The translations under genes were made by a program, and so were the position numbers. Source: a virus. From it: a stretch of 21,415 nt of DNA. Each line of letters starts with the position of its first letter. The first letter of the stretch is position 1. The stretch is from positions 1 to 21,415 of the IMG/VR virus record IMGVR_UViG_3300028844_000914, one strand, 5' to 3'. Below are positions 6,163 to 10,467 of the stretch, in pieces. The notes beneath the pieces were generated by a model that saw nothing but the letters and a program-made list of their open reading frames with translations, had not been told where the DNA came from and did no database searches.

Positions 6163-7488
6163 ATGGCAATATATAGAGGTGATGGTGGTGCAGGTGATGC
6201 AAATACTGATATAACAATTAACCAAGTCACAGAAAAAGCAAGTGAAGCCTCTGCCTCCGCAACAGCCGCAGCTTCAAGTGCGACATCAGCTTCCACTTCA
6301 GCTAGCAACGCTAGTACATCAGAAACAAACGCAAGTAATTCAGCCACAGCAGCAGCCTCGTCTGCTACTAGTGCAGCTACTTCAGCAACCAATGCTAGTA
6401 CTTCAGCAAGTACAGCATCAACTCAAGCGTCTAATGCATCTACTTCTGCAACTGAAGCATCAACTGCACAAACAGCAGCAGAGACAGCCCAGACAGCAGC
6501 AGAAACAGCAGAAACAAATGCTGAGACTGCAGAAACTAATGCTTCAACAAGTGCTACCACAGCAACTACTAAAGCAAGTGAAGCATCTACATCAGCTACT
6601 AATGCAGCCACAAGTGCTACAACAGCCACAACCAAAGCTTCAGAAGCTAGTACATCTGCTAGTAATGCAGCTACTAGTGAAAGTAATGCATCAACTAGTG
6701 AAACTAATGCAGCTAGTAGTGCAAGTGCAGCGGCTACTAGTGCAACCAATGCTGCAACATCTGCAACCGCAGCAGCAGCTAGTGCAACAGCAGCAGCAGC
6801 TGAATTAGAAACAGCAGCACTTAAAGCAAATAACTTATCAGACTTAGCAAGTGCAAGTACAGCAAGAACAAATTTAGGATTAGGTACAGCAGCAACAACT
6901 GCTAGTACAGATTATGCTACAGCAGCACAAGGCACTACAGCAGATAGTGCTTTACAAAATATAGTAGAAGACACCACACCACAACTTGGTGGTAATCTAG
7001 ATACACAATCATTTACTGTAGATGGCAGAGATGTATCTACTGACGGTACTAAACTAGACACAATAGAAACTAATGCAGATGTAACTGATACAGCTAATGT
7101 AACTGCTGCTGGTGCATTAATGGATTCTGAGGTAACTAACTTAGCAGATGTAAAAGCATTTGACACAGCAGATTATGTAGGTAAAACTTCAACTACTGGT
7201 TCAGGTCAACTACCAAGTGGTACAGAAGCACAAAGAGATGGCTCACCCTCCGCTGGATTTATTAGATTTAATTCTGACTCTGGAAGTTTTGAAGGGTATG
7301 ATGGGTCTGCATGGGGAAGCATAGGTGGTGGAGCTTCAGCAGGTGGAGCAATATACGAAAATACAGATGACATTACTGCTGACTATACAATAACTTCTGG
7401 CTCAAATGGAATGAGTGTAGGACCTATGACAATAGCTAGTGGTGTAACCGTAACCGTCCCTAGTGGACAAAGATGGGTGATATTATGA
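6163..7488 (+). CDS. Tail fibre with Ala/Ser/Thr-rich repeat stalk
   Basis: This 441-aa protein begins MAIYRGDGGAGD, a start common to tail-attached fibres of marine phages and probably the virion-attachment end. From about residue 26 to 220 it is almost entirely Ala, Ser, Thr and Asn in loose 7-residue units such as SATNAAT, with a near-duplicate stretch around TTKASEASTSA. Such repeats form a long trimeric fibre shaft. Then come a fibre-repeat-like region (LSDLASASTARTNLGLG), a GGNLDTQSFTVDGRD segment with similar later turns, and a short tip ending VTVPSGQRWVIL. AGAGG at 6153-6157 serves the ATG. The stop overlaps the next start (ATGA at 7485). Long open frames on the opposite strand and in frame +2 here are by-products of the repeat composition. 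Confidence 0.88.
   Translation: MAIYRGDGGAGDANTDITINQVTEKASEASASATAAASSATSASTSASNASTSETNASNSATAAASSATSAATSATNASTSASTASTQASNASTSATEASTAQTAAETAQTAAETAETNAETAETNASTSATTATTKASEASTSATNAATSATTATTKASEASTSASNAATSESNASTSETNAASSASAAATSATNAATSATAAAASATAAAAELETAALKANNLSDLASASTARTNLGLGTAATTASTDYATAAQGTTADSALQNIVEDTTPQLGGNLDTQSFTVDGRDVSTDGTKLDTIETNADVTDTANVTAAGALMDSEVTNLADVKAFDTADYVGKTSTTGSGQLPSGTEAQRDGSPSAGFIRFNSDSGSFEGYDGSAWGSIGGGASAGGAIYENTDDITADYTITSGSNGMSVGPMTIASGVTVTVPSGQRWVIL
6240..6825 (+). repeat. Degenerate 21-nt repeats coding the fibre stalk
   Basis: Tandem imperfect units code for 7-residue Ala/Ser/Thr/Asn blocks (for example SATNAAT, SASNAST). Two adjacent copies of a roughly 21-residue block containing TSATTATTKASEASTSA are nearly identical. 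Codons vary between units, which suggests selection on protein sequence with enough divergence to limit recombination. Confidence 0.75.
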
Positions 7489-8087
7489 CATGTAAAATTA
7501 ATGCAGATACAACTGATGGTTTAAAATTAATATCTGATACAAGTGGTGTAGTAGAGATACAAACTAATGGCACAACTGTTGCAACTATTAACAGCAACGG
7601 AACTGTCGTAATACCTACAGTAACCAACGGTACAGCAGTAGCAACCACATCAGGAACTGCGGTAGATTTTACTAGCATACCTAGTGGCGTTAAAAAAATT
7701 ACAGTTTTATTTAATCAAGTTAAAACAAGTGCTGCTGGTATAAGAATGTTACAAATAGGCACATCTGGTGGGTTAGTTACAAGTGGTTATATAAGTGCGG
7801 CAGGATACACTGGTTCTGGTGCTAGAGATGGTACTACATCTACGGCTGGTTTTATATTGGGAGCTGGTGGTGCAATAGCAGACAAAACAGTAGGTTCAGC
7901 AGTTATACAAACTATAGGAAGTAATACTTGGTGTATGAGTAGTGTTACAAGTGATGGTGTAGCTTCGTATGTAAAAATGGGTGGTGGCTCTATAACTTTA
8001 GGTGGTGTATTAGATAGAATTCGTGTTACTAATGTAAATGGACTAACTTTTGACCATGGTTCTGTAAACATAGCTTGGGAGTATTAA
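7485..8087 (+). CDS. Tail fibre tip / adhesin (beta-rich)
   Basis: This 200-aa beta-rich protein lacks cysteine pairs, a signal peptide or a shaft. The N-terminus (NADTTDGLKLISDTSG, VEIQTNG, ATINSNG) looks like short beta-helix turns. The C-terminal ~150 residues form a compact domain that ends FDHGSVNIAWEY, an ending typical of small receptor-binding or fibre proteins in marine phages. I place the start at ATG 7485, which overlaps the previous TGA and has GGTGA a few bases upstream. A further in-frame ATG at 7473 would add four residues but has a poorer ribosome site. It is followed 1 nt later by a 70-aa partner. It may be a separate fibre or a tip that assembles on the stalk protein upstream. 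Confidence 0.83.
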   Translation: MTCKINADTTDGLKLISDTSGVVEIQTNGTTVATINSNGTVVIPTVTNGTAVATTSGTAVDFTSIPSGVKKITVLFNQVKTSAAGIRMLQIGTSGGLVTSGYISAAGYTGSGARDGTTSTAGFILGAGGAIADKTVGSAVIQTIGSNTWCMSSVTSDGVASYVKMGGGSITLGGVLDRIRVTNVNGLTFDHGSVNIAWEY

Positions 8088-8088
8088 G

Positions 8089-8301
8089 ATGGCAAGAAAA
8101 GAAATTAATGTAATAACAGGTGAAGTTACTGAACACGCAGATGATGCTCCAGTAGTTTATGAGTTTACTTATCAAGATAAAAGAAAATATGAATATCCAA
8201 CAATTGGCGACCAGCTTGATGCTTTGTATCATGCAGGAGTATTTCCTACAGAAATGGCTAATGCAATCAAAGCAATTAAAGACAAGTATCCAAAGGAGTA
8301 A
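8089..8301 (+). CDS. Small XkdW-like tail-fibre-associated protein
   Basis: This 70-aa protein contains YPTIGDQLDALYHAG and ends AIKAIKDKYPKE. That resembles the pattern (YP-x-IxDQLD) of small proteins such as XkdW that sit next to phage tail fibre genes. Function is unknown; a fibre-assembly partner is plausible. GGGAG at 8077-8081 precedes the ATG. It lies 1 nt after the 200-aa adhesin and 3 nt before the next adhesin, so it is clearly part of the same operon. Confidence 0.78.
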   Translation: MARKEINVITGEVTEHADDAPVVYEFTYQDKRKYEYPTIGDQLDALYHAGVFPTEMANAIKAIKDKYPKE

Positions 8302-8304
8302 ACA

Positions 8305-9426
8305 ATGGCACTAACATTACATGGCACAGTAGCAGATAACACAGCAGTCTTAGATAGAAGAAGTGCTAAACCACTTGTTATTAATGGTAATATGCAGGTA
8401 TCTCAAAGAGGTACATCATTTTCTCCTAGCGGTAATACTGATTATTATTCAATAGATAGATTTGCTTATTTTGCTACAAGTGGTGCTACTGGTGATGCTA
8501 CAATTACACAAGCATCTGATGCACCATCAGGTACAGGATTTAAAAAATCTATAAAAATATCACCAGATGCAACCGAAACTCCAAGTGGAACTCACAATAT
8601 GGCTTTTGGTTATGCTTTTGAAGGTCAAGATGTGCAAGTTTTACAACATGGTCAAACTTCTCCAGAAAAAGTTACTTTAGCTTTTTGGGTAAAATCAAGT
8701 AAGACAGGTACTTATTGTGTGCAGATTAAAGAAGAAGGAATAACAGACGAAAGTTATCTGCTTTTTGAGTACGCAATATCAAGTGCTAACACATGGGAAA
8801 AGAAGATAATATCATGGACTGGTAATTCTGCTCATGCAATTAATAATGATAATACTCAGGGATATAGAATAATGTGGCATTTAGCAACTGGCTCAAGCGA
8901 CCATGCATCAGCAACTACAAGCTGGACTATATCAGAATCATTTAAAGCTACATCAAACCAAGTAAACTTTTTTGATAGCACAAGTAATGAATGGTATCTA
9001 ACAGGAGTACAACTAGAAGTAGGAGAGTTTGATGCTAACAGCATAGCTCCCTTCCAACATGAATCGTTTGGTGATAACTTAAAAAGATGTGAAAGATATT
9101 TTTGTAAGTCTTATAATTATGGTATAGCACCCGGCACTAATGCTTCATCTGACGCAAATGCTAAAAGAGGAGCGGTTTTTGTGTATAGGCAAAGGGATAC
9201 TAATTACGTTGGATTTAGTTTTTTTCACCCATCAGAAATGAGAACTAATCCTACAATGACCAATTATTCACATGATGGAACTAGTGGTAAATTTACAAGC
9301 TCAACTACTACTACAACTATTTCTACAAACGCAGCTTTAAATGGCACAAGACTTAGTATGGCTTATGGAGTTGCTTCAGCTGCAGATGATAACTATGCAC
9401 ATTTTGTTTGCGAGGCTGAATTATGA
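8305..9426 (+). CDS. Receptor-binding tail protein with carbohydrate-binding-like domain
   Basis: This 373-aa protein has three recognisable parts. A short leader (ADNTAVLDRRSAKPLVINGN) is followed by MQVSQRGTSF. A jelly-roll-like region, about residues 50-240, contains TLAFWVKSSKTGTY, ANTWEKKIISW and the hallmark TGVQLEVGEF. A C-terminal ~130 residues begins LKRCERYFCKS. This order is widespread in marine phage fibres and resembles carbohydrate-binding modules, so it probably contacts host surface glycans. A strong AAAGGAG (8292-8298, 6 nt spacing) supports the start. Its stop overlaps the next start (ATGA, 9423-9426). The glycan specificity cannot be read from the sequence. Confidence 0.85.
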   Translation: MALTLHGTVADNTAVLDRRSAKPLVINGNMQVSQRGTSFSPSGNTDYYSIDRFAYFATSGATGDATITQASDAPSGTGFKKSIKISPDATETPSGTHNMAFGYAFEGQDVQVLQHGQTSPEKVTLAFWVKSSKTGTYCVQIKEEGITDESYLLFEYAISSANTWEKKIISWTGNSAHAINNDNTQGYRIMWHLATGSSDHASATTSWTISESFKATSNQVNFFDSTSNEWYLTGVQLEVGEFDANSIAPFQHESFGDNLKRCERYFCKSYNYGIAPGTNASSDANAKRGAVFVYRQRDTNYVGFSFFHPSEMRTNPTMTNYSHDGTSGKFTSSTTTTTISTNAALNGTRLSMAYGVASAADDNYAHFVCEAEL

Positions 9427-9581
9427 CATATACTTATAGAGTTTTTACTCATACTGATGGGAGCAAAACTATTCAAAGAAAAGAAGATAACGCTTTTATT
9501 CCAGCAGATGAACAAAATACAGATTATCAAGAATACCTTGCATGGGTAGCAGAAGGTAACACAGCGGAGGCAGCAGACTAA
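9423..9581 (+). CDS. 52-aa fibre-associated protein
   Basis: This is a small acidic protein with YRVFTHTDGSKTIQR, then PADEQNTDYQEYLAWVAEGN and an AEAAD end. The DYQ-x-YL-x-W-x-AEGN pattern recurs in small phage proteins beside tail fibre genes. The gene begins on an ATGA overlap with the 373-aa adhesin and its TAA overlaps the ATG of the next adhesin (TAATG, 9579-9583). Both overlaps, and the lack of any gap, argue strongly that it is real despite its size. A fibre-assembly helper role is inferred. Confidence 0.8.
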   Translation: MTYTYRVFTHTDGSKTIQRKEDNAFIPADEQNTDYQEYLAWVAEGNTAEAAD

Positions 9582-10099
9582 TGAGTAGTATTAAATTAAA
9601 AGGTAGTACTTCTGGTGATGTAACACTTACTGTACCAGCAGTAGCTGGAACTAATACAGTAACCATACCAGCAGTAACATCTAGTGTTAATGTTGTTGGT
9701 CCTGCATTTCAAGTTTACGCATCAACTCAATCTATTGCTAATACTACATGGCAAAAAATAGTTTACGCTAATGAAGTGTTTGATACAGATGGAAAGTTTG
9801 CTAGTGATAGATTTACACCAACAGTTGCAGGGTACTATCAAATAAGTGCTGCTACCTATATGGGTTCTACTGGTGGTGCTGCTGTGTTAAGTATATATAA
9901 AAATGGTAGTAGTTTTAAAAGGGGTAGTGCATCACAAGGTACTACTGGTATGGGTTTAGCACCACATGTAAGTGCTTTGATTTATTTAGATGCGGATGAT
10001 TATGTAGAATTATATACCTATCAAGTTACTGGCGGTGCAGCAGATATTATTGGTACTGCGGATTTATCTTATTTTACTGGAGCTTACATAAGGAGTTAA
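9581..10099 (+). CDS. C1q/TNF-like jelly-roll tail adhesin
   Basis: This 172-aa protein has an N-terminal linker (residues 1-37) with beta-helix-like turns and LTVP, TVTIP, followed by a domain that matches the C1q pattern. That domain starts PAFQVYAS, has the strand pair WQKIVYANEVFDTDGKF, then the core motif FTPTVAGYYQISAATYM, IYKNG, and ends LSYFTGAYIRS. C1q-like domains form trimers and bind surface ligands; in phages they occur as fibre tips. GGAGG at 9566-9570 stands 10 nt before the ATG. The start overlaps the previous stop. It is a third adhesin type within 2.6 kb. Confidence 0.82.
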   Translation: MSSIKLKGSTSGDVTLTVPAVAGTNTVTIPAVTSSVNVVGPAFQVYASTQSIANTTWQKIVYANEVFDTDGKFASDRFTPTVAGYYQISAATYMGSTGGAAVLSIYKNGSSFKRGSASQGTTGMGLAPHVSALIYLDADDYVELYTYQVTGGAADIIGTADLSYFTGAYIRS

Positions 10100-10100
10100 T

Positions 10101-10262
10101 ATGGCAACATTATGCGAAAAGATTAAAACATTAAAATCAGATGTATCCGATATAGATTTTGTTAACAATATAATTGTACAAAATGATGGCGGTGAAAGTT
10201 ACATTGCTGTATGGAATCACCCTACTGAAACACAACCAACAGCAGAAGAGTTGGAAGATTAG
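10101..10262 (+). CDS. 53-aa protein paired with the C1q-like adhesin
   Basis: This small protein starts MATLCEKIKTLK and contains GGESYIAVWNHPTETQPTAEELED. The combination of a central Y-I-A-x-W strand and QPT-x-EEL tail occurs in small proteins near marine phage fibre genes. A strong AAGGAG (10090-10095, 5 nt spacing) supports the start; the gene lies 1 nt after the adhesin. One cysteine (residue 5) and no membrane segment. Function is not known; an adhesin-assembly role is inferred from its position. Confidence 0.8.
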   Translation: MATLCEKIKTLKSDVSDIDFVNNIIVQNDGGESYIAVWNHPTETQPTAEELED

Positions 10263-10272
10263 GAGATAACTA

Positions 10273-10467
10273 ATGAAAGAAAATGAAAAATGCTTAACTG
10301 AAGCTGACATAGATAGAATAGCAGAAAAAGCAGCTAATAGGGCATTAGAAAAAGTATATGCTGAAGTTGGTAAAAGTGTATCTAAAAAGTTAATGTGGGT
10401 TATGGGTGTTGTTTCTATAAGCTTAATAGTATGGTTATCTAGCTTTGGTGGTATAACTAAGTTATAA
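10273..10467 (+). CDS. Small membrane protein, holin candidate
   Basis: This 64-aa protein has a charged helical N-terminus (residues 1-38, DIDRIAEKAANRALEKVYAE) and one hydrophobic segment (about 40-60, MWVMGVVSISLIVWLSSF), with a short tail. AGGAG at 10261-10265 with 7 nt spacing fits the ATG. A single membrane helix with a cytoplasmic amphipathic arm would suit a class III holin or a lysis regulator, but many small phage membrane proteins look like this. It is separated from the lysozyme by about 10 kb, which weakens the lysis assignment. Confidence 0.78.
   Translation: MKENEKCLTEADIDRIAEKAANRALEKVYAEVGKSVSKKLMWVMGVVSISLIVWLSSFGGITKL

Follow-up and report, generated by a model that had tools for sequence, protein, structure and literature searches.

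Small genes behind three adjacent viral adhesin genes follow the type of adhesin tip and may encode tip-specific chaperones

The window analysed here is the whole 21.4-kb IMG/VR virus record IMGVR_UViG_3300028844_000914 (positions 1 to 21,415), and its subject is an array at 7485-10262 in which a gene for a protein of 52-70 amino acids (aa) stands behind each of three adhesin genes. All six genes lie on the + strand, between a tail-fibre gene and a conserved gene for a 64-aa protein. Adhesin 1 (A1, 7485..8087, 200 aa) consists of an anchor, A1n (residues ~1-45), which is common to adhesins with other tips, and a tip, A1c (~46-200). It is followed by S70 (8089..8301, 70 aa), whose N-module 'KEINVITGEVTE', the partner of A1c, is joined to a generic C-module 'YPTIGDQLDALY...KYPK'. 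Adhesin 2 (A2, 8305..9426, 373 aa) carries a CBM4/16-like jelly roll (~45-240) and a C-terminal region, matches the tail-fibre family phrog_4492 (E 1.8e-40) and precedes S52 (9423..9581, 52 aa, motif IPxDxxNxDYxeYLxWxxxGN), the partner of A2-type tips. Adhesin 3 (A3, 9581..10099, 172 aa) joins an anchor, A3n (~1-38), to a C1q-like tip, A3c, and precedes S53 (10101..10262, 53 aa), which corresponds to the N-domain of XkdW (PF09636), the partner of C1q-like tips. The first-pass annotation had described three adhesins each followed at once by a small protein, and the gene anatomy bears this out to within 4 bases: the A1/S70, A2/S52 and A3/S53 junctions measure +1, -4 and +1 bases, and those from one cassette to the next +3 and -1. 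Shine-Dalgarno-like AAGGAG, GGAG or GAGG sequences can be read upstream of the starts.

The three adhesins had also been described as differing in fold, which could be supported for two of them. A3 is predicted to be a C1q/TNF jelly roll: its model (pLDDT 85) matches C1q domains in Foldseek with an E-value of about 1e-8, and its profile matches C1q-like chains of the PDB (best E 9e-11). Pfam C1q (PF00386) scored in 14 of 28 A3 relatives, the window member itself giving no match. The A2 model (pLDDT 80) resembles CBM4-2 (Foldseek E 6e-7, TM to target 0.58), so that its likeness to carbohydrate-binding modules is a predicted match of fold only. A1 gave no match in a PDB profile search. Among the small proteins, S53 matches XkdW with 28 bits against a cut-off of 24.6 and aligns to residues 1-47 of PBSX XkdW (2HG7, E 9e-7); it corresponds to the N-domain alone, the full XkdW length being about 100-110 aa with a C-terminal part. 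S70 matches the second half of phrog_9114 and S52 matches phrog_20370, both function-unknown families. Profile-profile comparison detected no common ancestry of the three N-modules, all probabilities being under 1%. The three small proteins gave no profile match to Phage_tail_APC (PF16778), no match to Tfa/Caudo_TAP (PF02413) at E<=1 and no Pfam match to DUF4376, whose proteins are 195-239 aa long rather than 52-70 aa.

A shared acidic, aromatic character had been proposed as a further link among the small proteins, and this we rejected. Their isoelectric points are indeed low (5.1, 4.4 and 4.1 for S70, S52 and S53), but acidity is common in this genome and does not mark them out, since the fibre (4.1), the portal (4.6) and the collar (4.7) are equally acidic. 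The aromatic fractions of 0.114, 0.135 and 0.057, respectively, show that S70 and S52 are aromatic-rich and S53 is not.

To place the array in a wider context, six scans of viral contigs brought the set to 256 loci; the analysis as a whole covered several hundred, mostly from IMG/VR (numbered here with the prefix L). Every small protein and every adhesin domain was turned into a profile, and for all small-protein matches the gene immediately before them was classified. Since the loci were fetched by similarity to the window proteins, the counts of association are not those of an unbiased survey; many contigs are partial, and genes were called as simple open reading frames. Profile E-values from our scripts relate to small sets, so that points of weight were based on bit scores and independent checks. 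Within these limits, the check proposed in the first-pass annotation, whether each small protein follows its own adhesin type, gives a strong yes when the N-modules are considered: each of them keeps to one tip type among phages that are only distantly related, and the counts greatly exceed what chance would give. The 52-aa family sits behind an A2-type tip in 164/164 non-redundant loci, the 53-aa/XkdW family behind a C1q-like tip in 31/31, and the I-VNV-TGE-T module that begins S70 behind an A1c tip in 43 of 48 non-edge cases. This last count comes mostly from loci chosen by adhesin (the final scan, on the A1-type adhesin, gave 80 loci), and its profile was trained on the window's own sequence and about 40 others. 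With a median of 32% identity between pairs, and with 41 clusters at a threshold of 50%, the A2 partners do not form one recent lineage. Distances among A2 tips and among their 52-aa partners are correlated (r 0.32, shuffles at most 0.07), shared genome descent being uncontrolled in this comparison.

The pairing extends to cultured phages. Twelve records, selected by way of the small protein, have the 52-aa type directly behind an A2-type C-terminal domain; they span marine, freshwater and terrestrial phages (P-TIM68, S-2L, a Pseudomonas putida phage, Acidovorax ACP17, Alfacinha1, HTVC115P and others). In some the A2 tip ends a long fibre (985 aa in P-TIM68, 689 aa in 7B11-B, 681 aa in the Pseudomonas putida phage). 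When nine records were instead chosen on the adhesin, five carried the 52-aa type (P-SCSP2, HMO-2011, HTVC100P, Melnitz-2 and Venkman); in MinM1 the motif can be recognised by eye in a protein that gives no profile match, S-H34 and Kolga lack the type, and SRB7757 is unclear. A few depositors labelled such genes 'tail assembly chaperone' (Melnitz-2, 7B11-B) with the pairing unstated. XkdW is found behind C1q in seven marine or freshwater phages (MEP401, ct2os315 and Pelagibacter phages HTVC010P, 019P, 026P, 100P and 203P), and in HMO-2011 Phage_tail_APC stands directly behind C1q. Furthermore, in Bacillus phage PBP180 and Paenibacillus phage Unity, xkdW lies directly behind a fibre gene (L367 3178-4330 and L368 1650-4405, respectively) that ends in a previously unannotated C1q-like domain. 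The C1q-like tip profile scores 54 bits in PBP180 and 52 bits in Unity, with hhalign probabilities of 97% and 96%, and the PBP180 domain matches PDB cerebellin-1 (E 3e-11). By extrapolation from these two phages, the PBSX fibre upstream of xkdW may likewise have a C1q-like C-terminus. A scan of a genome collection for XkdW returned a single locus, and no matches came from a viral scan whose query was a terrestrial relative of the 52-aa family. The fold of A2 has a distant match in Pseudomonas phage E217; behind the fibre of that phage, no match to the small families was detectable.

The anchors of A1 and A3 are specific to their slots, and each occurs with A2, C1q and other tips, the small gene going with the tip. 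An A2 tip is followed by the 52-aa family on the A1 anchor in 7/7 cases and on the A3 anchor in 15/16; a C1q tip is followed by XkdW in 5/7 and 17/23 cases, respectively. Information on the identity of the small gene amounts to 1.18 bits from the tip and 0.08 bits from the anchor, shuffles within anchors giving at most 0.24. Individual loci show tip and small gene swapped as a block, both between close relatives and between array slots. The window and L099 share 92% DNA identity over 7371-8415, and similarity returns at 9542; between these points A2 and its 52-aa partner are replaced together, with 37% and 44% amino acid identity. In L098, the adhesin-1 anchor bears a C1q tip (59%) together with its XkdW gene (89%). 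As the small gene tracks the tip and not the anchor, and given L099 and L098, the exchanged block is tip plus small gene. The exchange of whole cassettes that had been suggested thus holds for the block, but the sequences indicate that the adhesin's N-terminal anchor commonly stays behind in its slot. Among close relatives, the small genes show codon changes that are too few or too mixed to support an argument on selection.

A clue to mechanism comes from Peptidase_S74, the self-cleaving intramolecular chaperone of endosialidases. Among adhesins on A1- or A3-type anchors whose tip belongs to none of the three types, 24 lacked a small partner and 65 had one. Of the former, 17 carried Peptidase_S74, as against 0 of the latter (Fisher p 5e-13), and it was found in none of 53 A2-type or 28 C1q-type adhesins. 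A tip thus tends to have a chaperone of its own or else a small partner encoded downstream, and this near mutual exclusion is what an intermolecular chaperone predicts.

The small proteins are themselves modular. The last ~45 residues of S70 (YPxIGDQLDALY...KYPK) form a generic C-module that is found behind several tip types, and that also occurs fused behind XkdW, in proteins of 104-115 aa, or behind the 52-aa module, in a protein of 101 aa; the tip-specific part of S70 is its first ~27 residues. The 52-aa module, in turn, is fused to Phage_tail_APC in longer relatives. Since the C-terminal two thirds of S70 are shared with the partners of other adhesins, only its N-module is dedicated. The idea of a dedicated partner therefore stands for the N-modules, each tied to one tip type, and fails for most of S70; in the same way, free swapping between adhesin types, which had been named as a sign against dedicated pairs, is seen for the C-module and is not seen for the N-modules. 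After runs of A1-type adhesins there is often a protein of 36-70 aa, M..RIVVNVQTGEVTQVE..., with the same motif as KEINVITGEVTE of the window. At L302, L296, L319, L351 and L366, A1-type adhesins occur in tandem runs of two to four, with the VNVxTGE protein behind only one or some of them, so that one partner may serve several A1-type adhesins. A separate DQLD-module protein in L015/L016 (5833-6555), behind a 997-aa gene, reaches 240 aa via repeats (MTREEWLAAQ / MTAEQWLAQQ).

We consider it quite probable that bases 7485-10262 hold three receptor-binding cassettes, each composed of an adhesin and a small tip-specific intermolecular chaperone or tip cap, with tip and chaperone exchanged as a block. 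We read the small proteins as most likely chaperones or transient caps, each specific to one tip and of the kind known from T4 gp38, Tfa and the DUF4376 proteins; each would probably help its own adhesin to fold and change hands together with the tip. The near mutual exclusion with Peptidase_S74 and the fusion of the 52-aa module to Phage_tail_APC back this reading. The two genes of a cassette would be translated together from their overlapping or abutting frames. The N-module of the small protein would then bind the C-terminal tip of its own adhesin and aid folding and trimerisation, or shield the tip until virion assembly; the optional C-module (of the DQLD type in S70, of the Phage_tail_APC type in relatives, and absent in S52 and S53) could have a generic role, for example in chaperone oligomerisation. 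Tip and chaperone gene would travel as one block because the chaperone matches the tip, the slot-fitting anchor being able to stay, with a possible effect on host range. Peptidase_S74 tips, having their chaperone built in, would need no partner.

Several observations weigh against such a reading, and most concern the converse of the pairing rule. An A2 tip is followed by the 52-aa family in 174/182 cases, whereas a C1q-like domain is followed by XkdW in only 33 of the 64 cases with a readable downstream gene; the small protein thus predicts the tip better than the tip predicts the small protein. Other C1q-like genes precede unrelated genes or a protein of 87-101 aa, and many A1c tips have no partner or are followed by another A1c adhesin. 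Among the cultured phages, A2 tips without a partner occur in S-H34 (three) and Kolga, a gap of 181 bases separates C1q from XkdW in HTVC010P, and in HTVC115P and L274 the C1q genes belong to the same array and are not directly upstream of XkdW (in L274 the C1q gene comes after it). Furthermore, the C-module is common to the partners of differing adhesin types, S74 was not detectable in 7 of the 24 adhesins that lack a partner, and we know of no function assigned to XkdW with its PDB structure 2HG7.

The same positional logic and tip-specific pairing could also be displayed by permanent structural subunits that remain attached to the tip of the adhesin in the virion and help to bind the receptor. 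S52 and S53, which are the tip-matching module alone, would suit such a cap, and in Mu Tfa and Salmonella phage S16 gp38 the downstream protein does stay bound (cited in PMC7289586). We nevertheless regard this as unlikely, since the near mutual exclusion with S74 points to a folding rather than a binding role, and since the small proteins are less variable than the tips (the XkdW partner is 87-91% identical where the C1q tip is 58-69%), unlike a receptor-contacting surface. Physical linkage offers another account, in which small genes of unrelated function hitchhike because breakpoints fall in the anchors and beyond the small genes. Adjacent and overlapping genes would indeed be carried together in a block exchange, of which L099 is an example. 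Linkage alone, however, would not keep one family with one tip at about 30% tip identity, from Pelagibacter to Paenibacillus hosts, and it leaves unexplained both the S74 tips that lack the gene and the fusions to tail-assembly-chaperone domains, so that we hold it to be improbable. A role in host takeover or superinfection exclusion, with the genes merely stored among the adhesins, would fit the general knowledge that small acidic phage proteins are often of that kind. It appears highly improbable here, as the small genes of the loci seen belong to the late structural region, overlap the adhesin genes or adjoin them directly, and track the tip type.

Beyond the chaperone reading of the three cassettes, we lean towards a general code in tailed phages, suggested by the sequence comparisons, in which the tip type would fix the N-module of the partner (XkdW for C1q, the 52-aa module for CBM-like tips, VNVxTGE for A1c and none for S74). 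XkdW would then be the chaperone of C1q tips in Gram-positive as well as Gram-negative hosts, and the partner would be predictable from the tip. Two further sets of loci may bear on the range of such pairs. A subset of C1q-like tips (L238 7648-8211, L243, L244, L252, L106 2208-3005 and L071 458-1276) is followed, not by XkdW, but by the 87-101 aa protein (ITLTDKQTKVLRHV..., ITLSAAEDKALHVV...DWIDNAV...); these tips may form a second C1q subtype that has a separate partner. A tip with the sequence '...AMPDANY...' (L144 160-648, L129 4964-5512, L095 3797-4345) is followed each time by a protein of 64-109 aa, and these proteins look alike (IIY..., VP.G...YEIVEDS.IPTDR.F..AW), forming a candidate fourth tip-partner pair.

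As for the surroundings of the array, the tail-fibre gene (6163..7488, + strand) encodes 441 aa with a long Ala/Ser/Thr-rich stalk and is assigned from the open reading frames and PHROG tail-fibre families. The ATG of A1 at 7485 overlaps its TGA, and an alternative in-frame ATG at 7473 would give an A1 of 204 aa. The 64-aa protein (MKENE(K/R)CLTEADIDRIAEKAA...), with one likely membrane segment, ends the adhesin array in the window (10273-10467) and in L153 (downstream of 4109); it is present in both despite their different last cassette. Elsewhere in the window we read putative terminase, portal, scaffold, capsid, tail-tube-like, collar-like and large internal-virion-like products in addition to the tail fibre; family support covers the fibre, the adhesins and the collar, and the other names are read from the sequences. 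No close DNA relative of the whole window was found among 50,697 phage records.

In T4 gp38, Mu/lambda Tfa and the R-pyocin chaperones, a small gene directly behind the fibre gene is dedicated to the tip, and the small genes of the array likewise lie directly downstream of, and are specific to, one fibre tip. Joint exchange of two such fibre-chaperone pairs is reported for Mu. The array differs from gp38/Tfa in that each N-module is tied to a tip type and can be combined with an optional, interchangeable C-module. Moreover, the T4 gp38/Tfa chaperones are single proteins of about 20 kDa (PMC7289586), whereas here proteins of 52-70 aa bring three unrelated N-modules into one array. The gp26 fibre of the Alteromonas phages V22 and A5 does not become functional without gp27, which is itself missing from the final complex (PMC7289586, PMC10579305). 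These are marine phages as well, and a fibre with a cognate chaperone is common to unrelated phages (PMC7289586, PMC10579305); that chaperone, however, has 195-239 aa and a C-terminal DUF4376, which the small proteins of the window lack. PBSX XkdW, at 110 aa, has a further C-terminal part, in contrast to the N-domain-only S53. Mutations that alter the plaque type of Bacillus phage Sam46 lie in the C-terminal helix of an XkdW-like protein (PMC8190038), and none of the literature found assigns a function to XkdW. Phage_tail_APC, the 'phage tail assembly chaperone', is fused to the 52-aa module in relatives and absent from the three small proteins of the window. In marine metaviromic islands, 'Carbohydrate binding domain', C1q and XkdW are among the most frequent named genes (PMC3909814); the passages found list XkdW as 'unknown' and describe no pairing of small proteins with adhesin types. 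Within an open-access library, no paper that states the pairing rule was found. The small proteins differ from the known chaperones in their size, in the tip-matched N-module with its exchangeable C-module, and in the presence of several types in one array.

If this interpretation is true, several common unannotated phage families, XkdW included, would gain a testable role. As a practical rule, small neighbours could reveal overlooked receptor-binding tips and aid their expression; the rule has already exposed the unannotated C1q-like tips of Bacillus phage PBP180 and Paenibacillus phage Unity. It also suggests how marine phages may swap receptor-binding tips while keeping them foldable: tip and helper would travel together, and the anchor can stay.

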